Part shown: positions 3,526 through 45,700 of the stretch, one piece after another
How the letters are laid out: every line of letters starts with the position of its first letter
How positions within the stretch are numbered: position 1 is the stretch's first letter
NCBI GenBank assembly: GCA_025355465.1
Contig: JANXZO010000022.1
Coordinates: forward strand, 1 to 58,587
Direction: 5' to 3'
DNA length: 58,587 nt
Source: Bacteroidales bacterium
GTDB taxonomy: Bacteria > Bacteroidota > Bacteroidia > Bacteroidales > FEN-979
Program-made: the position numbers and the translations under genes
The notes under the pieces: generated by a model
The model's database searches: none
What the model saw: the letters and a program-made list of their open reading frames with translations, nothing else
Told to the model about the DNA's origin: nothing

Positions 3526-3536
3526 GAGATGCAGAG

Positions 3537-6345: not shown

Positions 6346-6368
6346 ATTCGATGCGTTTGGTTTTTTTA

Positions 6369-8420: not shown

Positions 8421-8421
8421 A

Positions 8422-8940: not shown

Positions 8941-9004
8941 GATGGAGTAGTCTATTCGTGTACTTTTTCAATCCTTAATTCCATGGATTCGATCAATCCA
9001 CCGT

Positions 9005-10285: not shown

Positions 10286-10345
10286 AACAGCTTAAAATTT
10301 TGGAGGTTGTATATCGTTCTTTAGCGTAGAAATCATACGGAGGAA

Positions 10346-10353
10346 CAAAAGTA
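10346..10353 (-). promoter_or_regulatory. -7 element TACTTTTG for glyA
   Basis: This exact TAnnTTTG match on the minus strand would give a leader of about 55 bases before glyA. The -33 box is not clear. Confidence 0.45.
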
Positions 10354-10388
10354 AGATTATTTCGGATTATTTCTGGATATTTGCTAGC

Positions 10389-10423
10389 AAAAGTCAAAGG
10401 TCAAAAGTCGAAAGTCAAAGGTG
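10389..10423 (+). repeat. Heptanucleotide tandem repeat (five units)
   Basis: Five adjacent 7-base units read AAAAGTC, AAAGGTC, AAAAGTC, GAAAGTC and AAAGGTG. The final GTG is also the start codon of the next gene. Seven is not a multiple of three, so unit changes would alter spacing upstream but not the coding frame. Confidence 0.85.
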
Positions 10424-11584
10424 AAAATCAGTCTCGTATTGCTGCTTTGTCTGTTTCCAAATTTTCTTTGGGCCCAGTTTACTGCCGGGGTTGATGATAC
10501 CATTAATCCCGGGGTTCCGGTGACTCTTACGGCCAGTTACGGATTGATCGGTAACGAGGTGGCCACCACCGACGACGGAGTAGAAGGGCCCTTTCCGATC
10601 GGGTTTGATTTCTCCTTCTTCGGGAACATCTACACGCAATTTTATATTGGAGCGAACGGCTGGATCTCATTTTCCCCAAATCCCGACGCGAAGGGTCGCC
10701 GTGATGCATTTGCGGTGCCCAGCGCTGCCGACTACAACCCCAAAAATTGCATCCTCGGTCCCTGGCAGGACATGGATCCGGGTCAGATCAACAGTCCGTA
10801 CATTTTTTATCTCACTACCGGTAAAGCTCCGGTGCGAAGCTTGGTCGTTATGTGGTGTGAGTGTCCGCTTTATGCTACAGCGATGCGTGATTCACTGGTT
10901 ACTTTTCAGATCATTTTACGCGAAGGTTCCAATAATGTCGAAAACCATATCATGAAGAAACCTTCGGTAGACTGGCTCGGGAACAAGGCAACGCTCGGTT
11001 TGCAGAACATTACAGGTTATATCGGAATGGCGGTGCCAGGCCGCAATGCAACTTCCTGGCGAGCGGAGAAGGAGGCCTGGAGATATTCCCCAAGTTCGGC
11101 AGACAGCTTTCTCGTTGCCTCGATCCCTTACCATTTGCAGCCAGTCACGCCCGGAAGCAAAATCAGCTACCGCTGGTACCAGGGTTCGGAATTCATCTCA
11201 GACCAACAGAGTATTGTCGTAACGCCATCGCAAACAACAACCTACAGAGCGTTTTGCAGTGTTTGCAGCGGGGATACATTCTCTGCCCAGGTAACGGTTC
11301 ATGTGGTGCCGTACATTCCAAACGCTTTTACCCCTAACGGTGACGGGCTTAACGACCTGTTCACCATCACGGGTCTGCCGAAAGAGAACATCACGCAATT
11401 CAATTTCCAGATTTTTAACCGATGGGGCCAGCTGGTTTTTCTCACTCGAGACATAATGGAGGGCTGGGATGGAAGGAGCAAAGGGGAATACTGTCCGACG
11501 GATGTTTATTTCTGGGTGATTTATTGGGAAGACAACAAAAAAACCAAAGTTACCAATAAGGGAATGATAACCCTCGTACGTTAA
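10421..11584 (+). CDS. Secreted T9SS cargo protein with gliding-motility-type C-terminal (type B) sorting domain
   Basis: This 387-residue protein starts at a GTG and has a signal peptide ending FLWAQ (about residues 1-19). The middle (about 30-230) is a beta-rich domain built around a GFDFSFFGN/IGANGWISF stretch, like the N-terminal domain of many Bacteroidota surface proteins. Next comes an Ig/PKD-like segment (about 235-290). The end (about 295-387) is the gliding-motility-associated C-terminal domain, with PNAFTPNGDG, FNRWGQLVF and WDG. That domain is known to direct export through the type IX secretion system. The ligand or function is unknown. A heptad repeat provides its start codon and an octamer repeat lies just past its stop. 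Confidence 0.9.
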   Translation: MKISLVLLLCLFPNFLWAQFTAGVDDTINPGVPVTLTASYGLIGNEVATTDDGVEGPFPIGFDFSFFGNIYTQFYIGANGWISFSPNPDAKGRRDAFAVPSAADYNPKNCILGPWQDMDPGQINSPYIFYLTTGKAPVRSLVVMWCECPLYATAMRDSLVTFQIILREGSNNVENHIMKKPSVDWLGNKATLGLQNITGYIGMAVPGRNATSWRAEKEAWRYSPSSADSFLVASIPYHLQPVTPGSKISYRWYQGSEFISDQQSIVVTPSQTTTYRAFCSVCSGDTFSAQVTVHVVPYIPNAFTPNGDGLNDLFTITGLPKENITQFNFQIFNRWGQLVFLTRDIMEGWDGRSKGEYCPTDVYFWVIYWEDNKKTKVTNKGMITLVR

Positions 11585-11612
11585 TTTTTTTCTTGTTTTT
11601 CAGCCCATCTAC

Positions 11613-11668
11613 CCACATCACCACATCACCACATTACCACATTACCACATTATCACATTACCACATTA
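11613..11668 (+). repeat. Octanucleotide tandem repeat (seven units)
   Basis: Seven 8-base units of consensus CCACATTA (two read CCACATCA, one TCACATTA) fill the gap between two convergent genes. On the minus strand the repeat runs into the 3' end of the hybrid kinase and supplies its last codons and the TGA stop. Confidence 0.9.
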
Positions 11669-13584
11669 TCCAACAGATCGATCAGAACCTGTTTGTAAAA
11701 TGGCTTTTCGAGGTAATGGTTGGCTCCTTTGGAGATGATGTAATCCTTCTCATTCCGGAAAGCATAACCGGTTACCGCGATGATCGGGGTGAGCCTGTAA
11801 TCCTGCATTTCCCTGATCTTCCCGATCACATAAATTCCGTCAATTCCCGGCCCGAGATTAATATCCATCAGGATGGCTTTGTATTTTTTGGTTTTAACCA
11901 TCTCCAGCGATGATTCCCCGTCCCTTGCAACCTCAAGCCGGTAGTTCTTCAGCAGGTAATGTTTCACCAGGTCAATGTTGGCTTCATTGTCTTCAACAAG
12001 CAGAATCAGTGGAGGCTCCCTTAATGGATCATTAGTTTCTTCCGGAATGATCAGGTCGGGTTTATCAGTTGTATTGCTGGCTTGTTTTGTTGAGCCGGAG
12101 GGGAGGATTATTACGAATTCAGCCCCTTTCCCGGCTTCACTTTTCAGTGAGATTTTGCCATTGAGCGTGCGGATCGCCTTCCTGACGATGGCCAGGCCAA
12201 GTCCGCTGCCTTCATAAGGCCGGTTATATCCCTCCTCCGCCTGCCTGAATTCCTCGAAGATGATTTCCTGTTTTTCTGGCGCAATTCCAATACCGGTGTC
12301 GCGGATCCGGATATCCAGTTCCCCGTTGGCAGTATATTTACCTGTAATTGAAATGCTGCCTGTGCTTGTGAACTTTACCGCGTTCTCAATAATATTGAAC
12401 AGGGAACGGCGAAGGAGGTGCTCATCGGTCACCACCAGGAGCGAAGGTTCGATGGCTACTTCCAATGCAAGTCCCTTGCTATTTATCATCGCGTCGAGGC
12501 ATTCACAGATGCTCCCGATGATATCCCTAATGTCGACCGTAACAGGTTTAAGCGGAATTCCTGATTCAAGCTGGGCAAAAAGCATGATGGAATCGAGTGT
12601 TTGCTGAAGTCTTTTTCCCGACAGGAAAATATGTTCCGACATCGTTTTTGAATGTGGGTCAGAAAGTTCACCTGCAAGAATTTCAGAAAATCCGAGTATC
12701 CCATTCATGGGGGTACGGAATTCATGGCTCATATTCTGAAGTAAAGCAGATTTCATCCGGCTCGACTCCTCTGCTGCCATTTTTGCCTGGATCAACTCTT
12801 GTTCCGCTAACTTCTTTTCGGTAATGTCTGATAATATACCGCCCACCATCGACTCCCCGCCGCTATCTCCGGAAATGATGTAGCGTTGGTCCTTGACCCA
12901 CCTTTCCGATCCGTCCGAACGACGGATCCGATATTCATGGGTACTGATGCCGTGTGGGTTCAATTCCGTGATGAAATTTGTATAGCCGGACACATCTTCC
13001 GCGATAACGGACTCAATCCACCGTGATGGCTGTGCCCGGACATCATCCAGTTCAATATCATAAATTTTAGTGAAAGCTGCATTAATGATGTATGTTCTGG
13101 TCCCTTCAAGATTGGCAAGCCACACAACATCAAGCAGGTCCCGGATCAGTCGCTGAAACCGCTTTTCGGTTTGAGTAAGTACGGTTTCCACCCGTTTTTT
13201 ATCCCGTTTCATGGCCGTCTCCTCAAGTTCCCGCTTCACGGCAGGTCCGAGCCTGTGAAGATGGGTTTTCATCAGGTAGTCATTCGCCCCTCCTTTCATG
13301 ATGCTTACCGCAATGTCTTCTCCCACAGTTCCTGAAACAAGGATAAAAGGAATGTCAAGTCCTTTCGACTTAAACAGTTCCAGGGCATCTCCGCCACCGA
13401 ATCCCGGCATGGAGAAATCGGAAATTACGATGTCCCAACCGCCACGATCGAGCGCCTTATTCATTTCGTCGCGTGTTTTTACCTGAACATGATCAACTTC
13501 GAATCCCTCTTTCCTCAGTTGCCTGATGAGCAACAGTGCATCCGTGTCATTGTCTTCGGCCAGCAACAAATTGATTTTCGTCAT
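11653..13584 (-). CDS. Hybrid sensor kinase, REC-PAS-HisKA-HATPase-REC
   Basis: This 643-residue cytoplasmic protein has no membrane helix. Domains in order are a receiver (1-120, phospho-acceptor D56), a PAS/PAC domain (about 140-258), a dimerisation/phosphoacceptor domain with H287 in NMSHEFRTPMNG, an ATPase domain with N (IIENAVKF), G1 (DTGIG) and G2 (GSGLGL) boxes, and a second receiver (about 525-643, D574). The leading receiver suggests it takes phosphate or a signal from another kinase. The propeller kinase gene lies 45 bases upstream on the same strand and is the obvious candidate. No DNA-binding output is present. Its last residues and stop codon fall inside an octamer repeat. Confidence 0.93.
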   Translation of the reverse strand: MTKINLLLAEDNDTDALLLIRQLRKEGFEVDHVQVKTRDEMNKALDRGGWDIVISDFSMPGFGGGDALELFKSKGLDIPFILVSGTVGEDIAVSIMKGGANDYLMKTHLHRLGPAVKRELEETAMKRDKKRVETVLTQTEKRFQRLIRDLLDVVWLANLEGTRTYIINAAFTKIYDIELDDVRAQPSRWIESVIAEDVSGYTNFITELNPHGISTHEYRIRRSDGSERWVKDQRYIISGDSGGESMVGGILSDITEKKLAEQELIQAKMAAEESSRMKSALLQNMSHEFRTPMNGILGFSEILAGELSDPHSKTMSEHIFLSGKRLQQTLDSIMLFAQLESGIPLKPVTVDIRDIIGSICECLDAMINSKGLALEVAIEPSLLVVTDEHLLRRSLFNIIENAVKFTSTGSISITGKYTANGELDIRIRDTGIGIAPEKQEIIFEEFRQAEEGYNRPYEGSGLGLAIVRKAIRTLNGKISLKSEAGKGAEFVIILPSGSTKQASNTTDKPDLIIPEETNDPLREPPLILLVEDNEANIDLVKHYLLKNYRLEVARDGESSLEMVKTKKYKAILMDINLGPGIDGIYVIGKIREMQDYRLTPIIAVTGYAFRNEKDYIISKGANHYLEKPFYKQVLIDLLDNVVM

Positions 13585-13629
13585 ACTTCCAAATGGATTT
13601 TGGACCGGAAAATTATCTCTTATTTCTGG

Positions 13630-16600
13630 TTATTTTAGCGTAAAGAAAAATGTGGTTCCTTTACCGGGCTCGCTTTCCGCCCAGATTGAACCACCGTGTT
13701 TCTGAATGATCCTTTTTACTGTAGCAAGTCCGATGCCTGTTCCCTGGAACTGGTCATCGCTGTGCAGTCGCTGAAATGGAGTAAATAATTTGTCATAATG
13801 GTGCATGTCAAAACCCACCCCGTTATCATGGATAAAGATGGAATTTTTTCCATCTTTATCCACTTTTCCAAAAGTTATCATGGCGTTCATCTGATGGGAT
13901 GAATATTTCCAGGCATTGTCGAGGAGGTTTTGCAGGGCGATCTGTATCAGTCTTGCATCGCAATCAACCACAAAATCCTGTTGGATCGAAAAGGAAATTT
14001 TGCGTTCGGGGTTGGCAGTTTTGTGTTTCTCCAGTATTTTTTCTGCCATGCTGCTGAGGTTCACATCTGTTCTTTCGATCTCCTGGCGTGCAATACGTGA
14101 TAGTTTCAACAGTTCATCGATCAGTTGGCTCATGGTAGCCACCGATTCTGAGATTTTTGCCAGAAAATCCTGTGCTGTAACATCCAGCTTTTCACCGTAA
14201 TCTTCATTCAATGCGGCAATCAATCCTTCAATTCGCCTCACCGGTGCTTTCAGGTCATGGGAAACGGAATAGGAAAATGCTTCCAGTTCGGCATTGGTCG
14301 CCCCAAGCTGGGCAGTCCGGTCAATTACTTTTTCTTCCAGCTCTTCATTCAGCTTCCGGATCTCTTCAGTGCGGATAAACACAAGGTGTTCCAGCTCTTT
14401 TTCGCGCACCTGCCTGATCCGGTATTTCATGAAGAAGTAAAAAATTCCGATCACCAGCAAGATACATAGCAACAGGAACCAGGTAGTCTGATAAAAATAT
14501 GGTTTAAGGTGTATCTCTATGAGCTGCGTCTGGTCGCCCCATTGCCCTTGATGATTCATCACCTGCAGCTGAAATATGTAATCGCCGGGAGGCAATTTGT
14601 TGTAAAAGGCTGACCGCCTTGTTTTGGCTTCAATCCATGTCTGGTCATACCCTTCAAGTTTATAGCGGAAATTCAGGTCTTCCGGCAAGATAAAGCTTGG
14701 TGCCGTATATTTTATCTCCATTTCAATGGCCCCGGCTGGGATGACATAGCTGTTAGAAATTCCCAACGACTCATTGTTGATACTCAGATCCTGCAGGATG
14801 GCCAAAGGAGCATAAGAAGGCAATTCAATCGTTTGGGGATCAACCTCAACGATACCCAGCATGGTCGGAAACCAAATCTTATGGTCGCTGGTCTCGCAAC
14901 CTGCCGGGAATATAGCTCCGGTACAACTGCCCGCTTTTATTCCTTCCGCCTCGCCAAGTGAAATAATATTTAACGTTGTTAATTCCCCCTTTATGCAGGC
15001 TTCAATATCAGTTCGTTTCACGGCTATAATGCCGTTGCTGCTTCCCATCCATAGTTTTCCTCCCTGGTCTTCCACAATATGTGTGATGGCTTGCGGGTAG
15101 TTAAGGAATTGTCCGAGCTGATTGATTTTGCCTGTCTTTCCGTCGATGCGGTTAAGCCCGTCGTGTGCAGTGCCAACCCACATCGACCCCGATGCATCCC
15201 TGTAAAAACAGAGAATCATGTTGTCCGACAATCCATCCTTGCGGGTAATCGATTGTATCTTCCCATTGCGGATAATGTTAATGCCGCCCTCCTGCGTACC
15301 TGCCCACATGCTGCCTGAAGGACCTTCGTAGAAACACAGAACCTTGTCGTCTGTGAGGCCATCTGTTTTTCTGATCGTTCTGATGCTTCCGTCCTTTACG
15401 ACGATGATACCGGCATCCGTGCCGATCCACAGCGAATGGTCGCCCGATTCTATAACCGACCGGAATTGTGTATTTGGCAGCAACTGGCCGGCTTTGAACG
15501 GTTTGTTTGCCTTTCCGCCAGATCCTGCCAGAAATCCATAGGTGGCAGCCCAGATGATGTTGTCGGGACCTCCGCCTGCTATTGAAAACACAGGCTTGTC
15601 CTGGGTGTTAAACCGGGAACTCATATCGGTGAACTTCCCATTCCGGTAACAAACAATTTTACCCGATTCGCTGCTCACCCAGATGTCGCCGCTGTGGTCC
15701 TTGAAAATTGCCATTACCGAATTGTCCTTGAGCCCATCCGAGGTGGTGTAAGTTTTTACCAGATTGTTTCTGAGTCTGAAAATTGATGCACCCTGGGTTC
15801 CGATGATAACGTCGCCCTCGCGATCGGTGATCACGGAGGTGCAATTCGAACTATTCAGCAACGGGTCGGAGACGATACGTATGAAGGTTGAATTCGAAGG
15901 ATCATACACCAGCGGCCCGAGATCTCGCGACAGAACCCAAATCTTCCCTTCAGAATCCTGGTGAAATGCATTGATTGGGGACCCCTCTGACTGTTTCGGT
16001 TGATTGAATTGTTCAAATTTACCGGAGCTGAAGGTAATGATCTTTCCCTGGTTGGTGCCGATCCAGAGCTTTCCAGTCTTGTCATAGTGCAGGCTGCTGA
16101 CATCATTCCACACTAATCCGTCATTTTTTCCGTATGAATGTACCTTTCCATCCTTGATCAAATAGAGGCCTGACATAGCACCTGCCCAGATTTCATTCCC
16201 GTTACCGGCTGCAAGGCAACCGATGCCCTGGGAAAGCAATCCTTCGCCCGTGCCGTATCTTTTGAATTGTTTATTCCTGTAGCAGATGAGACCCGCCCCG
16301 TCGGTGGCTATCCATAAACCTCCGTCTTTGTCTTCGGTGATGGCTTTGATCGTACTGTTATGAAAATCCTTTTTACTGCCAATTATTTCAAACCGGCCAT
16401 TCCTGTATCTTGCCAGCAATCCATTGTACAATCCGCAATAAAGACTGCTGTCACGGGCAATATACAAGGCACTGCAGTCATCTTCCGTAAGCTCCGACGC
16501 CGTATGGCGGTTGAAAAGGGTGGTGGAGATCCCGTCAAAACGATAAATGCCCGATTCACTCCCCATCCATACATATCCCTCATAATCCTGAACCATGGTG

Positions 16601-33228: not shown

Positions 33229-34179
33229 ATGACTGCGAACGAAAACGATCGTCAGTCACGCCGGAAATTTATTAAACTTGGCATAGGTGCCGGAGCTGGT
33301 GTGATTGTTGGGGGTGGACTTTTAACTGCCATTACCCGGGCCGGGGAGGCCGAAAGTGGAGAAAAAATCAAACTTCTGTCGCCCGACGGGCAACTGATGG
33401 AGGTTGATAAATCACACTGCCGATCGTGCCCTGCTACCGGGCTGGAGGCGCGGCAGGGTATTCCCAACAAGAAAATGGTGATGGTCGTTGATCTTGCGCG
33501 TTGCCGCAACGCCCGCAAGTGTCTGGATGGTTGCCAGAAAATGCACAATCTTCCGCCCCGGATCGAGTGGATAAAATTTTTTCTGCTGCGCGACAGTGAA
33601 GATACCTCTCCTTACTGGTTTCCCAAACCCTGTTTCCAGTGTAACAACCCGCCGTGTGTAAAGGTATGCCCTGTGGGTGCTACCTTCAAAAGAAGCGATG
33701 GGATTGTGCTCATCGACAACGACCGGTGCATCGGATGTAAATTTTGTATGGCAGCCTGCCCATATTCGTCCCGGGTTTTTAACTGGACAGATCCGAATGA
33801 ACTTCGTGAACCGAAAGGTACCACCTATTCGCCGGAAACAAGCCAGCCCGGTAAAGTCGGTACCGTCGGAAAATGTGATTTCTGTCCTGATATGGTTCGC
33901 ATCGGCAAACTTCCTTCCTGTGTCTCTTCCTGTCCTAACGGGGTTTTCTTTTATGGAGACAAAAATGAAGATGTGGTTACCAATGGAACCGATACCGTCA
34001 GATTCAGTGAGTTGATCCAGCAACGTTCGGCATACCGGTTTATGGAAGAACTGGGCACCGAACCAGGGGTCTATTACCTCCCTCCTGTTAACCGTCTGTT
34101 CGATTATAAAGTGGGATTTGAAGACCTTAGTGAAGAGGAGATCAAATTGTATAAACAAGAAGCGCACATAACTGAATAA
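33229..34179 (+). CDS. Tat-exported four-cluster Fe-S electron-transfer protein (NrfC/PsrB/DmsB family)
   Basis: This 316-residue protein carries a twin-arginine signal (R11-R12 in SRRKFIKLG), so it acts outside the cytoplasm. Four cysteine sets bind iron-sulfur clusters: C135/138/143/147, C167/170/173/177 and C216/219/231/235 are complete. The first set has only C92, C98 and C102, with Ala95 where the second cysteine normally sits. An extra C64-x-x-C67 pair precedes them. These proteins carry electrons between a membrane NrfD-type quinone subunit and a periplasmic partner. The NrfD-type gene follows ten bases later. No molybdopterin catalytic gene is nearby. Confidence 0.92.
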   Translation: MTANENDRQSRRKFIKLGIGAGAGVIVGGGLLTAITRAGEAESGEKIKLLSPDGQLMEVDKSHCRSCPATGLEARQGIPNKKMVMVVDLARCRNARKCLDGCQKMHNLPPRIEWIKFFLLRDSEDTSPYWFPKPCFQCNNPPCVKVCPVGATFKRSDGIVLIDNDRCIGCKFCMAACPYSSRVFNWTDPNELREPKGTTYSPETSQPGKVGTVGKCDFCPDMVRIGKLPSCVSSCPNGVFFYGDKNEDVVTNGTDTVRFSELIQQRSAYRFMEELGTEPGVYYLPPVNRLFDYKVGFEDLSEEEIKLYKQEAHITE

Positions 34180-34189
34180 AACCGACGCT

Positions 34190-36448
34190 ATGGATCAGAA
34201 TGAAAAAACACTACAGAATTTTGAAAACTTCAGACCCCAGATTGAATCGATCAGTAAGAAAGGAAAAATAACCATCGCCGTACTTTCGCTGATCATCCTT
34301 TTCGGATTGTATGCGCTCTATGTTCAAATGGTCAAAGGCCATATTGTTACCGGGATGCGCGATTATGTGATCTGGGGATTGTATATCGTCAATTTCATCT
34401 TTTTTATCGGAATAAGTTATGCCGGAGCGCTTATTTCAGGGATCCTTCATTTGCTCCGGGTGCAATGGCGGACTCCGATCATCAGAATGGCCGAAACCAT
34501 TACCGTGGTTTCAACACTCATCGGTCCGTGTTATATCCTGCTCTGTATGGGACGACTAGACCGGCTGCACCACCTTCTGTTGTTCGGACGGATCCAGTCG
34601 CCGATAGCCTGGGACGTCATTGCCATCACAACCTACCTTACCGGAAGTATCATTTTTCTCTACCTGGCCAGCATCAGGGATCTTGCCTTCCTTCGCGATC
34701 ACCCGCTCAGCGTGGGGAAATGGCGTAACCCTGTGTACAAGTTCCTGGCTGCGGGATATCATGACACGCCCAAACAAAAAGAACTTCTGAACCAGCTTAT
34801 CGACCTTTTATCGATCGTAATCATTCCCCTTGCAATCCTCGTTCACTCGGTGCTGGCATGGATTTTCGGAATGACACTCAGGCCTGGCTGGCACAGTACG
34901 ATCTTTGCCCCCTATTTTGTTGTTGCTGCAGTTTATTCAGGCACAGGGGTGCTTATTCTGGTCATGTGGGTGTTCCGAAAAATCTATCACCTGGAGTCTT
35001 ACATAACAAAAATCCATTTCACCTATCTTGGTATCCTGCTGATGATTCTGGGTGCACTGTATGGGTATTTCACCTTCAGCGAATACCTTACAAGCTGGTA
35101 TGGCAGCGTGAAATGGGATATGGCAGTTCTGTATCGACTGTTTGATCCTACCGATTATTGGTGGTGGTTCTTCTTTGCCGCCTTTATCGGGGTGCTGTTG
35201 CCTATTGCCATCATTGCCATCCCTAAGTTCAGAAATATCAATTCCATTGCATTTGCTTCCCTGATTGCGGTGTTTGCACTTTGGATCAAACGTTACCTGA
35301 TCATCATTCCAACCCTTGAGGCCCCGTTGCTTCCACTGCACGACCTGAGGCCGGAATATGCACACTATTCAGCAACCTGGGTGGAATGGGCGCTTACTGT
35401 GGGCGGTGTCGCAACATTCTTTCTGCTTTTTTATCTTTTTTCCAAATTCATCCCGATCATTCCCATTGTGAAGATCAAATCATCGGAGGAGATGGATTAT
35501 CTGAAACTGCGCAAGCTCACAACCCAACGTATGCTCAAACGAATCATGAAGCAGGTGAGAAAGGATAAAAAGGTCGTCGTCGTCGTCCTTATCCTGCTGT
35601 TTGTGTCTGCCGGGCATGTTGGCCTCACGCAGGAACAGCTAACCCCCAGGCTTAGACTTGATTTCGTCAACAAGTCCGGGATCAGATTACTCAACGCAAA
35701 AGTTACCGTGAAGATCGAAGGAAAGAACACCCCTGTGGCTGATTTAAAGGTGCATTATTTCCTGATAGGCGATAAAACGAAAAAGCCGCTGGGAATAGAT
35801 ACCACTAATGGAGATGGCCTTACCTCCTTTACCCTCCCTGCCGATCTTGGCGCGCCAAGGAGCAAGGAGGGTGCCTACACCTATATGGCTTGTGTGGACA
35901 GCACCAAAGAATATTCAGGAGCATCCGCCGAAGTCAATATCCGGGATGTCTTTATGCTCATTACCTTCCATCAAAAAGATACCATTAAGCAGATCATGGT
36001 CGAAGCCCGCGAAATAGGACCGAAAGGAGATACGTTGCCAGTGCAGGATCAGAAGATTAATTTTTATGTGCCCCGCACTTTTACTTCGCTGAAAATAGGG
36101 GAGGCAACCGTTGTAAACGGCAGGGCCACGCTTGACTTTCCTGTCACGTTGCCGGGTGATTCGATTGGAAACCTCCCGATCGTAGCAAAGTTTGAAGACA
36201 ATGAAGCCTATGGCACGGCAGAAACCAATGCGGTAATCAACTGGGGAAAACCATTGCCGCCCATGCAGATAATCCATCGGGGCCTGGGCGACGTGAATGC
36301 TCCGTTATGGATGGTATACACGCTGATCATCCTTCTTTCCCTCGTTTGGTTTCACTACATGTATGCCATTTTCACTGTCTTCAGGATCAGACGGCTCGGG
36401 AAAAAGTTTGAAGCCCTGGAAAAGACAGGGAGCGGTGCAATTCAATAG
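34190..36448 (+). CDS. NrfD/PsrC-type quinone-interacting membrane subunit fused to an anchored extracytoplasmic domain
   Basis: This 752-residue protein has two parts. Residues 1-425 form about ten membrane helices of the NrfD/PsrC family, which exchange electrons between menaquinol and a partner Fe-S protein. From residue 453 the sequence looks like a fresh signal peptide: a basic stretch, a hydrophobic run starting with five valines (462-466), and a GLTQEQ end. About 210 residues of beta-rich, Ig/transthyretin-like sequence follow, then a final membrane helix (about 704-725) and a short basic tail. Family members usually end after the NrfD part, so this is probably a gene fusion. It starts ten bases after the Fe-S gene. 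Confidence 0.88.
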   Translation: MDQNEKTLQNFENFRPQIESISKKGKITIAVLSLIILFGLYALYVQMVKGHIVTGMRDYVIWGLYIVNFIFFIGISYAGALISGILHLLRVQWRTPIIRMAETITVVSTLIGPCYILLCMGRLDRLHHLLLFGRIQSPIAWDVIAITTYLTGSIIFLYLASIRDLAFLRDHPLSVGKWRNPVYKFLAAGYHDTPKQKELLNQLIDLLSIVIIPLAILVHSVLAWIFGMTLRPGWHSTIFAPYFVVAAVYSGTGVLILVMWVFRKIYHLESYITKIHFTYLGILLMILGALYGYFTFSEYLTSWYGSVKWDMAVLYRLFDPTDYWWWFFFAAFIGVLLPIAIIAIPKFRNINSIAFASLIAVFALWIKRYLIIIPTLEAPLLPLHDLRPEYAHYSATWVEWALTVGGVATFFLLFYLFSKFIPIIPIVKIKSSEEMDYLKLRKLTTQRMLKRIMKQVRKDKKVVVVVLILLFVSAGHVGLTQEQLTPRLRLDFVNKSGIRLLNAKVTVKIEGKNTPVADLKVHYFLIGDKTKKPLGIDTTNGDGLTSFTLPADLGAPRSKEGAYTYMACVDSTKEYSGASAEVNIRDVFMLITFHQKDTIKQIMVEAREIGPKGDTLPVQDQKINFYVPRTFTSLKIGEATVVNGRATLDFPVTLPGDSIGNLPIVAKFEDNEAYGTAETNAVINWGKPLPPMQIIHRGLGDVNAPLWMVYTLIILLSLVWFHYMYAIFTVFRIRRLGKKFEALEKTGSGAIQ
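35573..35587 (+). repeat. In-frame GTC trinucleotide tract (five units) at the fusion junction
   Basis: Five GTC codons in a row encode valines 462-466 at the start of the hydrophobic segment joining the NrfD part to the secreted part. Gain or loss of units would change helix length without breaking the frame. Confidence 0.8.
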
Positions 36449-36493
36449 ATAATCAAATAATAAGTAAACATATGATATAGGAGATTCGTCATT

Positions 36494-38167
36494 ATGCAAA
36501 CAGAGAATATAAAACACCTGAGCTTTGACAGTATCCTTGAGCAACTACACTCCCTCGAAACACGCCTGGCAAGGCTGGAAGGAAAGTTATCTACTGAAAA
36601 TGCACGCCAGTTTAGTGAAAATGCCCAATCTGCCGAAGAAGAGGCCAATCTCGTTGAGGTAGATAAATCAGTTATTGAATCAAATGTTGTCGAATACGGA
36701 CTTGCCTGGGTGGGGAGTATTGTCCTTTTATTCGGGATAACCTTTCTGATGACTTTCACCCAAAACCATCTCAACGGGATCCTTTCAAGTTTGATCGGAT
36801 ATTTTGCAGCAGCCGCGGTATTTCTGATTGGCTGGTCACTGAGAAACTCTTTCCCACACTTGTCATTTATGCTCAATATCGGAGCCCACCTGCTACTATT
36901 CTACGTTACCTTGCGGTTGTATTTTTTCTCACCTGTACCTGTGATCCCCGTTAAATTTGTGGTAATTCTTCTTATGCTCATTGCCACCGGAGCCATGCTA
37001 TACGGTGCCTTACGACGTGGAAGTGAGTTCATGGGAGCCATCGGGGTAATTCTTGTTTTGGCAACGGCACTTATCAGCGATTCTACCCATTATACGCTGC
37101 CATTGCTGGTTGTTGCGTCAGCCACATCGATGTATCTCTTTATCAGAAATGCCTGGTGGCACCAACTCATCCTGTCGCTTATTCTGGTTTATGTATGCCA
37201 TGTTCTCTGGCTTTTTGGAGATCCGCTGATGGAGCACCCCTTCGGCGTTGTCCAGGCACCGCAATTTAATCTTTTCTACCTGTTTGCCTATGGAACGATC
37301 TTTTCCCTCATTCCGCTGATAAAGCAGAAGGGCGAATTCCCCGATGGTGTTTATACCGCTTCCATCATCCTGAACGGTATCAGTTTCTCCATGGTGGTAT
37401 TCCTTGTAGTACTCTCTTTCTATACCAAGGGGTATGTTTGGATATTCAGCCTGATTTCCGCAATCTGCCTTTTTTATTCCATCTTCCTCAAATTCCGGAC
37501 AAACCGTCTTTTTGATTCGGCCTTCTATGCCTGTTTCAGTTTTATGGCGCTAAGTATTGCTGTATACGGATATGCCAATCTCCCCGGGGCATACCTGTTG
37601 TTGTCTCTCCAGAGTCTGCTTGTAGTCTCCTGGGCACTGTGGTTCCGGTCAAAGATTATTGTGGTGATGAATACCATCCTTTTTGTTGGAATGCTGCTGG
37701 TTTATCTGAGTTTTTCTCAACAGGTCAATCAGGTTAATTTCGCCTTTGCCATTACCGCTTTTGTGACAGCCCGCGTTATTAACTGGAGAAGGGACAGGCT
37801 GACCCTGAAGACTGATATGATCCGGAATGTGTACCTGATTACGCTCTTTTTTACGGTATTGTTTGCACTTTACCATGCCGTTCCCAAGCAGTATATAACA
37901 CTTTCATGGACCATAGCGGCCCTGAGTTATTTTATTTTCAGTCTGGTGATGAAACTTGTTAAATACCGCTGGATGGCCATTGCAACCTTACTCGTTACGG
38001 CCATTTACCTTTTTGTCTTTGACTTTGCCAACATGGAGGTAGGTTACAGGGTGGTGGCTTTTCTCTTTCTCGCTTTTATTACCCTGGGGGCATCCCTCTA
38101 TTTTACAAAGCAGATGCGGAAGAAAAAACATGGGGCAGCAACAGATGATGCAGTTAATTCAGCATGA
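36494..38167 (+). CDS. DUF2339-type polytopic membrane protein
   Basis: This 557-residue protein has a short N-terminal coiled coil (about residues 8-35, SILEQLHSLETRLARLEGKL) followed by a dense series of some 14-16 hydrophobic helices and a basic C-terminal tail. That layout matches the DUF2339 family, whose function is unknown. It starts 45 bases after the NrfD-fusion gene and is followed by a strong terminator, so it closes the Fe-S/NrfD transcript. No metal, nucleotide or enzyme motif is visible. A helper or assembly role for the neighbouring electron-transfer proteins is only inferred from position. Confidence 0.7.
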   Translation: MQTENIKHLSFDSILEQLHSLETRLARLEGKLSTENARQFSENAQSAEEEANLVEVDKSVIESNVVEYGLAWVGSIVLLFGITFLMTFTQNHLNGILSSLIGYFAAAAVFLIGWSLRNSFPHLSFMLNIGAHLLLFYVTLRLYFFSPVPVIPVKFVVILLMLIATGAMLYGALRRGSEFMGAIGVILVLATALISDSTHYTLPLLVVASATSMYLFIRNAWWHQLILSLILVYVCHVLWLFGDPLMEHPFGVVQAPQFNLFYLFAYGTIFSLIPLIKQKGEFPDGVYTASIILNGISFSMVVFLVVLSFYTKGYVWIFSLISAICLFYSIFLKFRTNRLFDSAFYACFSFMALSIAVYGYANLPGAYLLLSLQSLLVVSWALWFRSKIIVVMNTILFVGMLLVYLSFSQQVNQVNFAFAITAFVTARVINWRRDRLTLKTDMIRNVYLITLFFTVLFALYHAVPKQYITLSWTIAALSYFIFSLVMKLVKYRWMAIATLLVTAIYLFVFDFANMEVGYRVVAFLFLAFITLGASLYFTKQMRKKKHGAATDDAVNSA

Positions 38168-38327: not shown

Positions 38328-39818
38328 ATGAAAATGCCCAAAGCAATCTCTAACTGGATCAGTATTTTAGGAGCCCTTTTTGCCATCAATGCCTTGATTT
38401 TAATTGTTGTTCTTTTTGTTCATGGGCTGCTCACCGATCATCAGAACCCGTATAATGGCATGTTTACTTTTATCATTATGCCTGCGATCCTGGTTATTGG
38501 GTTGATTATGATCCCCACAGGAATGATGATAAAGCGGTTCAGGGTCAAGAAAGATGATCAGAAATGGCCGGTGCTCGACATGAACAACGCTCGTCAAAGG
38601 CAAAAACTGGTCCTTGTTTCCATTCTGACTTTCCTGTTCATGATTATTTCTGCAGTTGGAAGCTACCAGGCTTTTACATTTACTGAATCCGTTGAATTTT
38701 GCGGAAAGCTATGCCATCGCGTGATGGAGCCTGAGCACACTACGTACCTTCACTCACCCCATGCCAGGGTTGCCTGCGTTGAATGTCATGTTGGCGAAGG
38801 AGCCGACTGGTATGTGAAATCGAAACTTTCCGGTATGTACCAGGTTTATTCAGTGATTTTTCATAAATATCCGCAACCGATTTCAACGCCGATTAAAAAT
38901 TTGCGGCCTGCCCGGGAAACCTGCGAACGCTGTCACTGGCCTGAAAAATTTTACTCAAGGAAAATGCGTACACAGCGAAATTATCTTACCGATTCGCTCA
39001 ACACCGAATGGAACTATTCAATGCTCATGAAAATCGGACCCAACCTCGCTGCCGAAGGGCTGAAAGAGGGCATTCACTGGCACATCAACAAAGATATGCG
39101 CATAGAGTATGTCGCCTCCACCAACGACCGTGAAACAATTCCCTGGGTTAAATATACCAACCTCAAAACAGGAGAGGTAAAGATCTTTCAGGACGAAGAG
39201 AACAAACTTGATAAAAAGGCCCTCGATACACTCGAGCATCGTATCATGGATTGTATGGATTGTCATAACAGACCTTCCCACAATTATAAATCAGCCACCA
39301 CTTACGTCGACAATGCCCTTATAAACGGAGAAATTCCGAAGGATCTTCCGCTGATAAAAAAGGTGGCCATGAACGTCCTCAAAGGACCGTTTACCAATAC
39401 CGATTCCTCTCTTACCTACATTCGCGACAGTATCACTAATTTTTACAAGTTGGGATACCCGACCATCTATGCCTCGCGTAAAAAAGACATAGAACAGGCA
39501 ATTAAAGGGATTTTGAAGGAATTTTCACTGAATGTTTTCCCTTATATGAGGGTTACTTCGAGTACCTACCTCAATCACATCGGCCACCTGGAGTCTGATG
39601 GTTGTTTCCGCTGCCACTCCAATCGTCATAAAACCGACAAGGGTCAAGTCATCTCCAAAGACTGTAATCTTTGTCATACAATTATCGCCCAGGGGCCCAC
39701 AGGAAAAATCAAATATACCACAATTGATTCCGTGATGGAGTTTACCCACCCGATCGATGTGAAGGATAATTGGAAAACCTATTTCTGCACAGAATGTCAC
39801 CGTCAGCTTTACCCTTGA
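38328..39818 (+). CDS. Seven-heme NapC/NirT-type inner-membrane cytochrome c with three membrane helices (ImcH-like layout)
   Basis: This 496-residue protein has three N-terminal membrane helices (about residues 9-33, 46-68 and 93-115) and then a periplasmic cytochrome domain. Seven heme sites are visible: an atypical C-x3-C-H at 125-130, and six CxxCH sites ending at H154, H203, H313, H430, H450 and H491. The first part (residues 120-160) has the NapC/NirT menaquinol-site pattern. Such cytochromes oxidise menaquinol and pass electrons to periplasmic carriers. Three helices plus seven hemes recalls ImcH of Geobacter rather than the one-helix, four-heme NapC/NrfH. It has its own transcript between two terminators. 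No nitrite or nitrate reductase gene is adjacent. Confidence 0.88.
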   Translation: MKMPKAISNWISILGALFAINALILIVVLFVHGLLTDHQNPYNGMFTFIIMPAILVIGLIMIPTGMMIKRFRVKKDDQKWPVLDMNNARQRQKLVLVSILTFLFMIISAVGSYQAFTFTESVEFCGKLCHRVMEPEHTTYLHSPHARVACVECHVGEGADWYVKSKLSGMYQVYSVIFHKYPQPISTPIKNLRPARETCERCHWPEKFYSRKMRTQRNYLTDSLNTEWNYSMLMKIGPNLAAEGLKEGIHWHINKDMRIEYVASTNDRETIPWVKYTNLKTGEVKIFQDEENKLDKKALDTLEHRIMDCMDCHNRPSHNYKSATTYVDNALINGEIPKDLPLIKKVAMNVLKGPFTNTDSSLTYIRDSITNFYKLGYPTIYASRKKDIEQAIKGILKEFSLNVFPYMRVTSSTYLNHIGHLESDGCFRCHSNRHKTDKGQVISKDCNLCHTIIAQGPTGKIKYTTIDSVMEFTHPIDVKDNWKTYFCTECHRQLYP

Positions 39819-39968: not shown

Positions 39969-41435
39969 ATGTTCCTTAATTCAGCGAAGTTCCACGGAGA
40001 AGGGTTAACGTATGACGATGTGCTGCTTGTACCTGCCTATTCAGAGGTTTTGCCGCGCGATGTTGACTGTGCAACGCTCTTCACCAGAAACATAAAACTC
40101 AACATTCCCATCGTTTCTGCCGCCATGGATACCGTTACGGAATCACGGATGGCCATAGCCATGGCCCAGGAGGGCGGAATCGGAGTGTTGCATAAGAATA
40201 TGCCCATTGAAGCCCAGGCACTTCAGGTGCGAAAGGTTAAAAGGGCCGAAAACGGCATGATTCTCGATCCGGTAACGCTCATGGAGAATGCCCTCGTCGG
40301 GGATGCCCTTGCCATGATGAAGGAGTTCAGCATCGGTGGAATTCCGGTGACAAACCAAAACAATGAACTGGTTGGCATCGTGACAAACCGGGACCTTCGT
40401 TTTGAACGGGATCATATGCGGCCGGTAACGGAGGTAATGACCCGAAAAGTTATCACTATCAGTGAGTTTACTGATTTTGAACAAGCCGAAGCAATCCTCC
40501 AGCAGCATAAAATCGAAAAACTTCCGGTCGTAGATAAGCACAACAAACTCATCGGACTTATCACCTACAAGGATATTATCAAGATCAAAGCCAGACCCAA
40601 TGCCTGTAAGGATAGCCTTGGACGCCTCAGGGTTGCAGCCGCTGTAGGCATCGCAGCCGATACCCTCGACCGCGTTGCCGCGCTGGTTAGAGAAAATGTT
40701 GATGCCATCGTAATTGATACGGCGCACGGTCATTCAAAAGGCGTAATGGACATGGCGCGGAGGGTGAAAGCAGGTTTCCCCAACGTGGATCTTATCATCG
40801 GCAATATTGGCACTGGCGATGCCGCACGCGACCTTGCCAAAATTGGTGTGGACGGCGTGAAGATAGGTATCGGACCGGGTTCTATCTGCACCACACGGAT
40901 CATTGCCGGGATTGGAATTCCACAACTTTCTGCCATTTATGATGTTACGAACGCACTTAAAGGAAGCGGGATCCCAGCTATTGCAGATGGCGGTATCAGG
41001 TACACCGGCGATATAGTAAAGGCATTGGCTGCCGGAGCGCATAATATCATGGCAGGATCACTTTTTGCCGGAGTTGACGAATCTCCGGGCGAGACAATTA
41101 TTTATGAAGGCCGTAAATTCAAGACCTACCGGGGCATGGGATCAATCGAAGCCATGCAACATGGTTCCAAAGACCGTTATTTCCAGGATGTTGAGGACGA
41201 CATCAAAAAGCTGGTTCCCGAAGGCATCGTCGGCAGGGTTCCCTACAAAGGTTCCTTGTCGGAAGTTATATATCAGATGGTTGGCGGATTACGTGCCGGA
41301 ATGGGCTACACCGGTTCAGCCACCATCGATGACTTGCAGAAGGCAAAATTTATAAAAATAACTTCTGCAGGTGTTGTGGAGAGCCATCCCCACGATGTCA
41401 CCATCATCAGCGAAGCACCTAATTACAGCCGCTAA
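39969..41435 (+). CDS. guaB: Inosine-5'-monophosphate dehydrogenase
   Basis: GuaB oxidises IMP to XMP, the committed step of guanine nucleotide synthesis. The protein shows [14 protein letters not shown] near the N-terminus, two CBS domains (about residues 95-215), the phosphate-binding [11 protein letters not shown] loop with the catalytic cysteine, and the GMGSIEAM flap. In-frame starts exist at 39960 (TTG), 39963 and 39969; the last gives 488 residues, the usual length. The parvulin genes follow without a visible terminator, an order often seen in Bacteroidota. Confidence 0.95.
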
Positions 41436-41478
41436 TCAGATCTATAAATATAGTAAGTACAATAAATTCTATCTCACA

Positions 41479-43470
41479 ATGAAAAGCTTGAATTTTAAAG
41501 TTTTGTTTTCATTATTGATGCTGATCCCCTTTGTTGTTGTCACTGCACAGGTTAACAATGATGAAGTCCTGATGACAATCGCCGGTAAAAAGATTCATGT
41601 CAAAGACTTCATGGCAATCTACCAGAAAAATAATGTGAAAGGTGAAACCATCGACAAAAAATCACTGGATGAATATCTCGATCTGTTCATTAATTTTAAA
41701 CTGAAGGTAAAGCAGGCTGAAGAGCTCGGACTGGATACCGTGTCGACTTTTGTGAATGAACTTGCCGGGTATCGCGACCAGCTGGCGCAACCATATCTGA
41801 CGGATGCTGCCACCATGGATCGCCTCGTTGCGGAAGCCTACGAACGGGGCAAGGCCGATATCAGGGCCAGCCATATCTACTTCAGGCTGAAAGCTGATGC
41901 CACACCTGCCGATACCCTGGCTGCCTATACCAAAGCATTGAAAGTAAGGGAACGGATCGCCAATGGTGAATCATTCGAAAAATTGGCAATTGAATTTTCA
42001 GAAGACCCCTCTGCAAAAGATCGCGATGCAAATCAGCAACATCCTTTTATCAAAGGGAACCGCGGTGATCTGGGGTACTTTACCGTCTTTGATATGGTAT
42101 ATCCATTTGAAACCGGAGCCTATAGCCTCGAGGAAACAAAGGTTTCCGCACCCATCAGGTCGGAATACGGTTACCATATCATTAAAGTCACAGTACGCCG
42201 GCCTGCCCTGGGAAAGGTAACTGTAGCACACATTTTTATGGCCATCCCTAAAAGTGCAACTGCCCAGGATTCATCCCGCATACAAAAACGGATCGACAGT
42301 GTTTATGCGAAATTATCGGCTGGCGCATCTTTTGAAGATCTCGTCAAAGTATACTCCGACGACAAAGGTTCCGCCGCCAAGGGTGGTGTTCTTCCTAAAT
42401 TCGGCGTGAACAGGATGGTGCCCGAATTTATTGATGCAATCTCAGGTTTGAAGAACCCGGGAGATTATTCAAAACCGATTCTTACCCCCTATGGATGGCA
42501 TATTGTAAAGCTTGAGAAGCGTGATGAACCCGTCACCCAGGAAGAATTGACAGCAGATCTGAAGAAACGTATAAAGAACGATTCGAGGTTCCAACTTGTG
42601 AAAAATGCTACCCTGAACCGTATCCGTGCTGAATATGGAGTCACTGAATTTCCTGAGGCGAAAGCAGATTTCTACACGGTGGTTACCGACAGTATTTTTG
42701 TTGGCAAATGGGATGTAAACCTTGCCAAGGACCTTACAAAACCGATTTTCAAAATTGGAAATATGACCTTTCGTCAAAAAGATTTTGCCGAATCGCTTGC
42801 AGCAAAACAGCGTAAACGCGACAAAGAAAATATTCAGGTCTATGTTGATAAAATGTATTCTGAATATCTCGACGAAAGTTTGTTGAAATGGGAGAACGCC
42901 CATCTTGAAATTAAATATCCGGAATTTAAGGCACTAATGACCGAATACCGTGATGGCATCCTGCTCTTCGACCTTACCGACCAGAAAGTTTGGTCCAAAG
43001 CGGTGAAAGACACCACCGGACTGAAAGAGTTCTATGCCAAAAACAAAGGAAGTTACATTTGGGATGCAAGAGTTGATGCCAGTGTTTATACCCTGAAAGA
43101 TCCTAAAGCCCTGCAGAAGGTGAAGAATTTTATCCAGTCTGGACTCGCAGACAAAGACATCCTTAAAGAGGTCAATGCAGATTCCGCAAAGATCCTGACG
43201 ATTGAGAGTTCCAAGTTTTCGCGGAAAGATAACAAGATTGTAGATTCTGTGGCCTGGACCCCCGGATTTTCGAAGGAATTGCACATCGATGGTGCCACCG
43301 TATTCGTGAATATCAGGAAGGTATTGAAACCTGAACCAAAAGCGTTGAATGAGGCCAAGGGGCTTATCACGGCCGATTACCAGAATGCATTGGAAAAAGA
43401 TTGGATTAAAACACTCCGCGCCAAATATCCGGTGGTTGTTAACAAGGAAGTGCTGGCTAAAATCAAATAA
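41479..43470 (+). CDS. Periplasmic parvulin-type peptidyl-prolyl isomerase (PpiC/SurA family), two parvulin domains
   Basis: This 663-residue exported protein starts at the ATG at 41479 (signal peptide ending VTAQ); the longer open frame runs into guaB. An N-terminal SurA-like chaperone segment (about 25-115) is followed by two parvulin domains (about 118-235 and 240-345) with GDLGYF and KGGVLPKFG, each ending in a YGYHII or YGWHIV strand. A further helical region of about 300 residues has no motif I recognise. It probably helps fold outer-membrane proteins. It is the first of three related genes in a row. Confidence 0.88.
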   Translation: MKSLNFKVLFSLLMLIPFVVVTAQVNNDEVLMTIAGKKIHVKDFMAIYQKNNVKGETIDKKSLDEYLDLFINFKLKVKQAEELGLDTVSTFVNELAGYRDQLAQPYLTDAATMDRLVAEAYERGKADIRASHIYFRLKADATPADTLAAYTKALKVRERIANGESFEKLAIEFSEDPSAKDRDANQQHPFIKGNRGDLGYFTVFDMVYPFETGAYSLEETKVSAPIRSEYGYHIIKVTVRRPALGKVTVAHIFMAIPKSATAQDSSRIQKRIDSVYAKLSAGASFEDLVKVYSDDKGSAAKGGVLPKFGVNRMVPEFIDAISGLKNPGDYSKPILTPYGWHIVKLEKRDEPVTQEELTADLKKRIKNDSRFQLVKNATLNRIRAEYGVTEFPEAKADFYTVVTDSIFVGKWDVNLAKDLTKPIFKIGNMTFRQKDFAESLAAKQRKRDKENIQVYVDKMYSEYLDESLLKWENAHLEIKYPEFKALMTEYRDGILLFDLTDQKVWSKAVKDTTGLKEFYAKNKGSYIWDARVDASVYTLKDPKALQKVKNFIQSGLADKDILKEVNADSAKILTIESSKFSRKDNKIVDSVAWTPGFSKELHIDGATVFVNIRKVLKPEPKALNEAKGLITADYQNALEKDWIKTLRAKYPVVVNKEVLAKIK

Positions 43471-43474
43471 GATT

Positions 43475-44314
43475 TTGAAGAATATAAGTATCTTATTGCT
43501 GATCGTTCTTACTTCCTGCAATACCTTTTTCAAAAAGAAAACAGAGCGGGTTCTGGCCAGAGTGCATGATGAATATCTATATGAGTCTGACCTTAAGGGA
43601 ATTATACCTGCTGGGACATTGCCGAAGGACAGTATTTCGATTGCCAGGGGTTTTATTGACAGCTGGGTACGGCAGCAACTCATCATCAGGCAGGCCGTAG
43701 ACAATTTAACCAGCGCCCAGGTCGATTTTACCAAACAACTCGAAAATTACAGAAATTCGCTCGTGATCTTTGAGTACGAGAACGCCCTTGTTCATCAAAA
43801 ACTTGATACAGTAATTTCCAGCGACGAAATTCAAAATTACTATGATGCCAACCAACAGAACTTCCTGTTGAAGGACAACATCGTTCAAATTCAGTATGTA
43901 AAACTTCCTTTGAAATCTCCCAATATCCCACAAATCAGGAAACTTCTGAACTCCGATAATGCAGATGATAAGAATAAATTATCGGAGCTTTGTGAAAAAA
44001 TGGCAGCAGATTATTTTCTTGACGATCAAAACTGGTTGCTTTTTAATGACTTGTTGAAACAGGTGCCGGTAAAGACCTACAATCAGGAGGAATTTCTTAA
44101 AAGTCACAGGGACCTTGAATACCAGGATTCTGCCTATATTTATCTGGTCAGGTTCAAGGATTTTAAAGTGAAGGAAAGTGTATCTCCGTTAAGCTTTGAA
44201 ATGCAGCGGATCAAAGATATTTTGCTGAACAAGCGAAAAATTGCGCTGATAACCCGGCTGCATGAGGACCTCTACACACGGGCAGTTAAAAATAACGATT
44301 TTGAAATTTATTAA
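43475..44314 (+). CDS. SurA-like lipoprotein without a recognisable parvulin active site
   Basis: This 279-residue protein probably starts at TTG 43475, four bases after the previous stop, because that places a lipoprotein signal (ILLLIVLTSC, Cys at about residue 15) at the N-terminus; the open frame itself extends upstream into the previous gene. Residues 30-120 resemble the SurA N-terminal chaperone domain. The region where a parvulin domain would sit (about 125-235) lacks the usual GG-LG-F motif, so it is likely a chaperone without isomerase activity. It lies between two active-looking parvulin genes. Confidence 0.75.
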   Translation: MKNISILLLIVLTSCNTFFKKKTERVLARVHDEYLYESDLKGIIPAGTLPKDSISIARGFIDSWVRQQLIIRQAVDNLTSAQVDFTKQLENYRNSLVIFEYENALVHQKLDTVISSDEIQNYYDANQQNFLLKDNIVQIQYVKLPLKSPNIPQIRKLLNSDNADDKNKLSELCEKMAADYFLDDQNWLLFNDLLKQVPVKTYNQEEFLKSHRDLEYQDSAYIYLVRFKDFKVKESVSPLSFEMQRIKDILLNKRKIALITRLHEDLYTRAVKNNDFEIY

Positions 44315-44341
44315 TGGAACCTGGTTCCGAAATTGCGATCC

Positions 44342-45700
44342 ATGAAACGCTGGAGAAAGTTAATCGTATTATTGCCCATTTTTGTTCTGCTTGCAGATCA
44401 GGTTTCCGCTCAAACTAAGCAGGATTCTATAATTGACGGCATCGTAGCCATCGTCGGAGGGAATGTTGTACTGATTTCCGATATTGAAAACCAGTATCTT
44501 CAGTTGCGCAGCCAGGGAAGTATTCAGGGTACTGCTCCCAAGATGAAATGTTCCATCCTTGAAAACATGCTATTCCAAAAATTACTCCTGCACCAGGCTC
44601 AGGTTGACAGTATCCAGGTGACGGATTTGCAGGTTGAAGGTGAAATGGACCGCAGGATGCGCTATTTTATTTCGCAGGCAGGTTCCCCGGAAAGGCTTGA
44701 AGAGCATTTTGGTAAGACGTTACTCGAGATCAAGAACGAGCTGAGGGACGTGATCAAGGAACAGATGCTGGTTGAACAGACACAACAGAAAATCACCAAA
44801 GATGTTACCATCACTCCTGCTGAAGTAAAAGCCTTCTTCAGGAAATTACCCAAAGACAGTATTCCCCTTATCAATTCTGAACTTGAAGTGGGGATGATCG
44901 TGAAACTGCCGGCAATTGGAGATGCTGAAAAAACGATAGTTAAAGATAAACTGAAGAGTTTTAAGGACAGGATTGCCAAGGGCGATGAATTCAGCACCCT
45001 GGCAGTCCTCTATTCGGAAGATCCCGGTTCAGCCAAACAGGGAGGTGAACTTGGTATGTTCAAACGCGGAGAGATGCGACCTGAATTCGAAGCTGCAGCA
45101 TTCAAACTGAAACAAGGGGAGGTTTCTGATATCGTGGAAACCGAAGATGGGTTCCATCTCATACAGATGATTGAACGTCGCGGAGAGTATATCAATGTCC
45201 GTCACATTCTGCTGCAACCTAAAGTCACTGTTGCCAATCTGAACAAGGCTAAGATTTTTCTTGACAGCGTGGCCACGCTTATTTCCAAAAAGAGTATGCC
45301 ATTTGAGCAGGCGGTAATCAGATTTTCCGACGACCCGAGCAAAAACAGTGGAGGGATGATGATAAATCAGGCCTCAGGCACTACAAAATTTGAATCCGGA
45401 CAACTTGATGCTAAGGTGTTTTTTGTGGTTGATAAGCTTAAAAAGGGTGAGGTTTCCGCCCCTGTGCTTGTTAACGAAAGGGGTAAGCAGGATTACCGCA
45501 TCTATTTTCTGAAAGAACGCACCAATCCGCACAAGGCAAATCTGCAGGAAGATTATGCAAAAATACAGCAATGGGCCCTGGAGAGAAAAAAGATGGACAT
45601 AGTAGATAGCTGGATCAATACGAAGATAGCCGGTACCTATATCGCGATATTGAACGAATATCGGAATTGTGAATTTCAGCGCAAGTGGCTGAAGAAATAA
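44342..45700 (+). CDS. surA: SurA-type periplasmic chaperone/peptidyl-prolyl isomerase
   Basis: This 452-residue protein starts at the ATG at 44342, giving a signal peptide ending QVSAQ. It has a SurA N-domain (about 30-165), a first parvulin domain (about 170-280, with GGELGMFKRGEM and DGFHLIQM), a second, more divergent parvulin domain (about 285-400, with GGMMINQASG) and a C-terminal helix. SurA delivers unfolded outer-membrane proteins to the BAM machinery. The MoxR gene starts at its stop codon. Confidence 0.88.
   Translation: MKRWRKLIVLLPIFVLLADQVSAQTKQDSIIDGIVAIVGGNVVLISDIENQYLQLRSQGSIQGTAPKMKCSILENMLFQKLLLHQAQVDSIQVTDLQVEGEMDRRMRYFISQAGSPERLEEHFGKTLLEIKNELRDVIKEQMLVEQTQQKITKDVTITPAEVKAFFRKLPKDSIPLINSELEVGMIVKLPAIGDAEKTIVKDKLKSFKDRIAKGDEFSTLAVLYSEDPGSAKQGGELGMFKRGEMRPEFEAAAFKLKQGEVSDIVETEDGFHLIQMIERRGEYINVRHILLQPKVTVANLNKAKIFLDSVATLISKKSMPFEQAVIRFSDDPSKNSGGMMINQASGTTKFESGQLDAKVFFVVDKLKKGEVSAPVLVNERGKQDYRIYFLKERTNPHKANLQEDYAKIQQWALERKKMDIVDSWINTKIAGTYIAILNEYRNCEFQRKWLKK

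Follow-up and report, generated by a model that had tools for sequence, protein, structure and literature searches.

The window, a 58,587-nucleotide contig of a Bacteroidales bacterium, carries on its forward strand a gene in which an NrfD-type membrane subunit runs in frame into a second, exported domain, here called the tail. An Fe-S protein gene precedes it and two further genes follow. The features are, on the + strand throughout:

33229 to 34179, +: DsrO/NrfC-like Fe-S protein, exported (Tat type) and carrying several 4Fe-4S motifs; the partner subunit of NrfD (Pfam Fer4_11, 4.1e-18)
34190 to 36448, +: fused gene for the NrfD subunit and an anchored Ig-domain subunit, 752 amino acids, a single open frame
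34190 to 35473, +: NrfD core, residues 1-428, ten-helix type (Pfam NrfD, ten long model helices, ActC match)
35474 to 35569, +: NrfD C-terminal extension, residues 429-460, net positive, containing Met453 (alignment with the separate NrfD of locus L067)
35570 to 35629, +: putative internal signal peptide comprising the hydrophobic core and the cleavage region, residues 461-480 (aligned with the signal peptides at the start of separate tails)
35627 to 35632, +: predicted signal peptidase I site between T480 and Q481 (column conservation in 25 fused proteins)
35642 to 35947, +: first Ig-like domain (AlphaFold2 strands 486-585)
35948 to 36241, +: second Ig-like domain (AlphaFold2 strands 587-683; weak Big_1, Big_3_5 and bMG3 matches in other, whole tails)
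36305 to 36394, +: membrane helix near the C-terminus, residues 706-735, with a basic end behind it (AlphaFold2 helix 706-745; strongly conserved in the tail alignment)
36494 to 38167, +: DUF2339-like membrane protein, operon neighbour (Pfam DUF2339 7.4e-06, 25.5 bits, below the cut-off of 33.6)
38328 to 39818, +: NapC/NrfH-like cytochrome c with six CxxCH, operon neighbour (Pfam Cytochrom_NNT 2e-07)

Domain searches, which the original prediction had suggested, returned the NrfD family for the first half and no family above cut-off for the second. In the profile search Pfam NrfD (PF03916) covered residues 53-375 (E 8.7e-31). With 108.1 bits against a gathering cut-off of 25.8 and profile positions 2-308 of 313 aligned, the protein belongs to this family. 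Its best sequence match was ActC of alternative complex III (PDB 6f0k_C, E 3.1e-55), and the fold of ActC was matched with a TM-score of 0.82 by target length. For the whole chain AlphaFold2 (alignment of 71 rows, mean pLDDT 86.8) predicts an NrfD half of ten long helices, then a helix at 431-457 and a poorly modelled short one at 463-472; after the junction come two beta domains, at 486-683, and a helix near the C-terminus (706-745). Modelled alone, the tail again gave two beta domains and a helix, at a pLDDT of 93.5.

The tail searched alone against Pfam and NCBIfam had no match above cut-off; the best of the Pfam bacterial Ig-like domains reached 14 bits against a cut-off of 35.5 and remained below the gathering threshold. 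Among 72 whole tails, 30 matched Big_1 at E values up to 0.01. A profile search of the PDB gave four matches up to E = 1, the best being intimin (1.4e-05). The top 50 of 1626 fold matches in the PDB were, by name, Ig-like or similar beta-domain proteins (best E 5.6e-06; TM-scores by query length were low, at most 0.37). The predicted fold of the tail is thus Ig-like. A CxxCH heme site is absent from the tail of the window.

Another explanation for such a long frame is an artefact, i.e. a missed stop or a frameshift that merged two genes in the window assembly alone. Evidence in its favour was not found; in several relatives, though, one stop is all that separates the two genes in a shared frame, and a single base error would be enough. 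The distribution of the fused frame was surveyed in 100 genomes including that of the window, 43 from its family and 57 from other families. An NrfD at least 74% identical and located in a long frame was present in 26 of the 43 family genomes, which span five of the eight sampled genera; 25 of these frames were 675-770 amino acids long and one (G025) was cut by a contig end. All 57 genomes of other families lacked NrfD at this identity threshold. The 24 fused homologues from other genomes are 60-68% identical to the window protein; 23 are nearly full length and one is cut at a contig end. This rejects a sequencing or assembly error. Furthermore, the junction codons vary as coding sequence in five close fused pairs: the differences were mostly at third codon positions in the NrfD part, the junction and the tail, which indicates that the whole frame is under selection as a protein. 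The probability of an artefact is practically nil.

The reading of this frame as an in-frame fusion of NrfD with a secreted, membrane-anchored Ig-domain protein was thus borne out: the frame 34190-36448 has no stop near 35540, where a stop or frameshift would have refuted the original prediction, the fused frame is present in 24 other genomes, and elsewhere the second half is a separate, adjacent gene. The fusion is real and common to more than half of the sampled family genomes. It is a lineage trait, neither an error nor restricted to the window. In a phylum-wide draw of 394 genomes, NrfD was matched at 1e-80 in 12, the window's own genome among them, and only the latter had a fused frame, which marks the fusion as a rare trait of its lineage.

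Several further long frames were considered as fusions and rejected. Second copies in G036, G017, G028 and G034 have open-frame lengths of 750-777, with stops between the genes. When they were read directly, with G009 added, NrfD and tail were in the same frame with exactly one stop between them in G036, G017, G028 and G009; in the fifth copy (G034) the stop was followed by further sequence before the tail start. In the copy on contig C63 of the window's own genome, reported with a length of 764, stops separate the two genes as well. The end of the G079:C22 frame (660 amino acids) is, by reading, not this tail.

Next we asked how the two halves are organised in relatives at large. The best 80 of at least 556 matches, from named relatives, were used; this set was ranked with the fused query and consequently favours loci with a tail. 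Frames were classified among NrfD matches of at least 60 bits on the strand of the match. Among the loci of these best 80 of at least 556 matches were 93 NrfD frames; the tail was a separate downstream gene in 70 and fused in 17. The script had called 73 frames separate; three second copies (L113, L116, L117) matched only the small cytochrome and were removed. The remaining frames comprised these three with a small cytochrome only and three at or near a contig end. L006 is cut at a contig end. The expectation that the halves would be found as adjoining separate genes thus held for 70 of the 93 NrfD frames. In a set of 20 wider loci, the tail stood with NrfD and the Fe-S protein, separate or fused, in 18, and relatives of the Fe-S protein lay directly 5' of NrfD in 18; the exceptions, L048 and L050, are loci in which NrfD was not seen. 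With few exceptions, the order in the Bacteroidota loci inspected was Fe-S protein, NrfD, anchored Ig protein. Judged from these gene neighbourhoods, the tail is the usual third gene of a Bacteroidota module consisting of Fe-S protein, NrfD and tail, and a family of anchored Ig proteins that has no name would gain a place as its third member. The heme-type tails at L048 (9324-10217) and L050 (4748-5653) stand without an NrfD within the stretch covered; hence the tail family is not always tied to NrfD. The window's own genome has a second such module with separate genes on contig C63 (L034, G000:C63:33000-51716, positions 3407-14123). By reading, it is adjoined on its 3' side by frames resembling cytochrome oxidase genes. 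The first domain of its tail is a monoheme cytochrome c.

Where do the two proteins join? The original prediction had the second protein begin at Met453. This did not hold. The window stretch through MKQVRKD aligned with the C-terminal end of the NrfD from L067, where NrfD is a separate gene, and none of 2000 shuffles aligned as well. Met453 is therefore part of the C-terminal extension of NrfD. According to this alignment the join lies near residue 460, and the tail's own start appears to have been lost there. Met453 bears on another explanation of the frame, an internal translation start, by which one frame would yield the fusion and, in addition, the tail alone. The window does have an ATG at codon 453, followed by a basic stretch and a hydrophobic run. 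However, 23 of 25 fused proteins have I in column 453 and the window alone has M, and the codon falls within the part whose homologue closes a separate NrfD. As a general mechanism, a start at Met453 is rejected by these two observations, and an internal start in this region is very improbable.

The history of the fusion was traced on an NrfD tree of 92 sequences (18 fused, 73 separate and one without a tail; two contig-cut frames shorter than 400 amino acids were excluded). The label 'fused' required two changes, one for 17 rows around the window and one for L119. A single clade of all 18 fused rows was rejected (p-AU 0.002, in a quick tree in which L119 is long-branched). On this tree the fusion arose twice. 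The placement of the separate L067 beside as opposed to inside the window's clade had a support of 2. The second fusion, L119:5923-8187, is an independent joining of NrfD and tail in a Cyclobacteriaceae bin. By gene order and alignment, the fusion is a merger of the second and third genes of the module, which were already adjoining; in the window's lineage the NrfD frame continues into the tail, whose signal peptide comes immediately after the C-terminal extension of NrfD. For 67 separate pairs with a full tail (the second copies of L113, L116 and L117 and the short tails of L065, L067 and L128 were excluded) the reading frames were compared: both genes were in the same frame in 28, and in 17 exactly one stop lay between them. 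Hence a single base change could start a fusion, and such precursors could arise easily. L136, L137, L138 and L141 are examples in which NrfD and tail share a frame with exactly one stop codon between them. The fusion itself counts as genetic evidence that the tail works with NrfD.

The separate tails have ordinary N-terminal signal peptides, many ending in A/Q (a slash denotes the cut); the cleavage positions assigned to them were picked by a rule favouring Q. What became of this signal peptide in the fused chain? It survives within the fusion: residues 454-481 of the window protein, and the aligned positions of the 25 fused proteins, show the sequence features of Q-rule substrates, which are a basic region and a hydrophobic core, then Gln at +1 behind small residues at -3 and -1. 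The -3 position was small or aliphatic and the -1 position A, S or T in all 25; +1 was Q in 19, E in three and G in three, and +2 was D or E in 24. The window site, GLT/QE, is the sole one of 25 with Thr at -1. Column entropies were 0.87-1.04 at 480-482 and 2.08-2.76 at 473-479 with a tail mean of 1.17; as the conservation is about that of an average tail column, the site stands out only against its immediate flank. Moreover, the relatives in this alignment come from five genera, and the counts among the 25 proteins are not independent. L119, which was fused independently, has ALA/QKK at the corresponding place. Across the phylum, about 71% of the proteins cut by signal peptidase I carry Gln at +1 (PMC5837995, PMC10653852).

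These data bear on the question whether the chain is cut. The original prediction had proposed a tether: in this reading the internal stretch would be an eleventh membrane helix, and an uncut chain of twelve helices would keep the Ig domains beside the quinone subunit. In fact, the internal stretch is as hydrophobic as the protein's own C-terminal membrane helix. The best 19-residue hydrophobicity means were 2.12 for the internal segment, 2.11 for the C-terminal helix, 1.91 for separate signal peptides and 1.63-2.76 for the NrfD helices. Hydrophobicity does not separate a cut from an uncut chain. Neither is the bare motif specific. A scan for Q-rule plus core in 26 fused proteins found the internal site in 20, and found patterns at residue 46 in 13, at residue 271 in 11 and at residue 51 in two, within NrfD, where cutting is not expected. 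The case for cutting therefore rests not on the pattern but on the segment being homologous to the signal peptides with which separate tails begin. Against the tether speak the -1, +1 and +2 positions, which are more conserved than -8 to -2, and the same site in the independent fusion L119. As weak evidence, the AlphaFold2 model has a helix of just ten residues here and a confidence below 50 at residues 469-481. A permanent tether is thus possible and, with a signal peptidase I site kept in 25 fused proteins and in L119, which suggests a cut chain, not the best reading; we consider it rather unlikely. The likeliest reading is a precursor, favoured by the conserved site columns, the similar site in L119 and the frequency of Gln at +1 in the phylum. 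With some reservation we favour the prediction that the fused chain is processed to NrfD plus an anchored Ig-domain subunit. The more specific proposal, a respiratory polyprotein in which signal peptidase I cuts an internal Q-rule site behind ten helices, reached twice independently, has a slightly weaker claim and is about evenly balanced.

Such a precursor might be processed as follows. NrfD would insert with its C-terminus on the cytoplasmic side. According to a review of NrfD proteins, both ends of ActC and ActF face the cytoplasm, and models of other ten-helix relatives contain equivalent additional helices (PMC8076601). As the NrfD half finds its best match in ActC and the linker behind it is basic (residues 429-461 have a mean net charge of +5.9 in the 25 fused proteins), we infer that the C-terminal extension, residues 429-460, is cytoplasmic. 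The internal signal peptide would then re-enter the translocon, the Ig domains would be exported to the periplasm, and the C-terminal helix would anchor them. Signal peptidase I would cleave before Gln481, so that NrfD and an anchored Ig subunit would be produced as two proteins at a constant 1:1 ratio, and the Gln exposed at the new N-terminus would undergo cyclisation. In the assembled complex, electrons would pass between menaquinol and a periplasmic cytochrome c via the Fe-S protein, and the Ig subunit may be where the cytochrome docks at the membrane. A chain that is indeed cut would constitute a natural test of whether signal peptidase I accepts an internal signal peptide behind many membrane helices; the preservation of an internal signal peptidase site in a fusion is the unusual and testable part.

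Q-rule substrates share with the window site the small -1 residue and Gln at +1. The leaders described for them are N-terminal, whereas the signal peptide of the window is internal, behind ten membrane helices, and pyroglutamate at inner-membrane proteins is described as still to be tested. The NrfD review (PMC8076601) uses neither 'fusion' nor 'fused', which does not show that an NrfD-tail fusion is unpublished.

The closest parallel may be FbcH of Bradyrhizobium, the cytochrome b-c1 precursor, in which a quinol-oxidising membrane subunit and the next, exported and C-terminally anchored subunit are reportedly made as one chain and cut. The protein families are unrelated, however; cutting in the window is a prediction, and the second part lacks a CxxCH heme site.

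Among known complexes, alternative complex III is similar in that ActC (PDB 6f0k, 6btm) is a ten-helix NrfD-like quinol subunit, the best match in sequence and fold, and has an Fe-S protein and cytochromes c as partners. It differs in several respects: ActA, ActB, ActD, ActE and ActF were not recognised in the window flanks (by reading, with five proteins profile-searched), the Fe-S protein of the window is a separate small Tat-type protein, and the matched ActC chains (445-486 amino acids) are too short for such a tail. The pairs DsrO-DsrP (of DsrMKJOP) and QrcC-QrcD also combine a small Fe-S protein with an NrfD-like subunit, and weak family matches were found. Yet the membrane subunit of the window scored 82.9 of 350 bits for DsrP and 48.8 of 570 for QrcD, far below the equivalog cut-offs. 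The Fe-S protein (33229 to 34179) scored 169.5 bits against NCBIfam DsrO and did not reach the cut-off of 200. With both DsrP and DsrO below their NCBIfam cut-offs, the two proteins are not assigned to DsrMKJOP. By reading, DsrMKJ genes are absent from the window locus.

Which partner might the tail serve? A monoheme cytochrome gene lies 3' of the fusion in L054, L057, L063 and L119, and this free cytochrome is homologous to the N-terminal domain of the heme-bearing tail in the window's own genome (38%, 1.4e-18). The cytochrome thus forms part of the tail in some cases and is encoded next to it in others, an arrangement that points to a docking partner. Gene order fits the notion that the tail docks the Fe-S protein or a cytochrome. 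In the window locus a monoheme cytochrome gene is missing (36448-36494); the nearest copy of the small cytochrome in its own genome is a 61% relative, G000:C63:51095-51499.

Relatives of the DUF2339-like protein are located downstream of the fusion in L054, L057 and L063, and such a membrane protein adjoins the module in several relatives. The NapC/NrfH-like cytochrome has a 74% relative immediately 3' of the Fe-S protein, NrfD and tail genes in L041, and a NapC-like cytochrome was seen near the module in the separate-gene relatives L041, L043, L068, L079, L087 and L120. A NapC-like cytochrome with six CxxCH was not found within the flanks of the fused loci L054, L057 and L063. Further downstream in the window, at 41371-45700, lie three adjoining frames which, by reading, resemble parvulin-type or SurA-like periplasmic folding factors.
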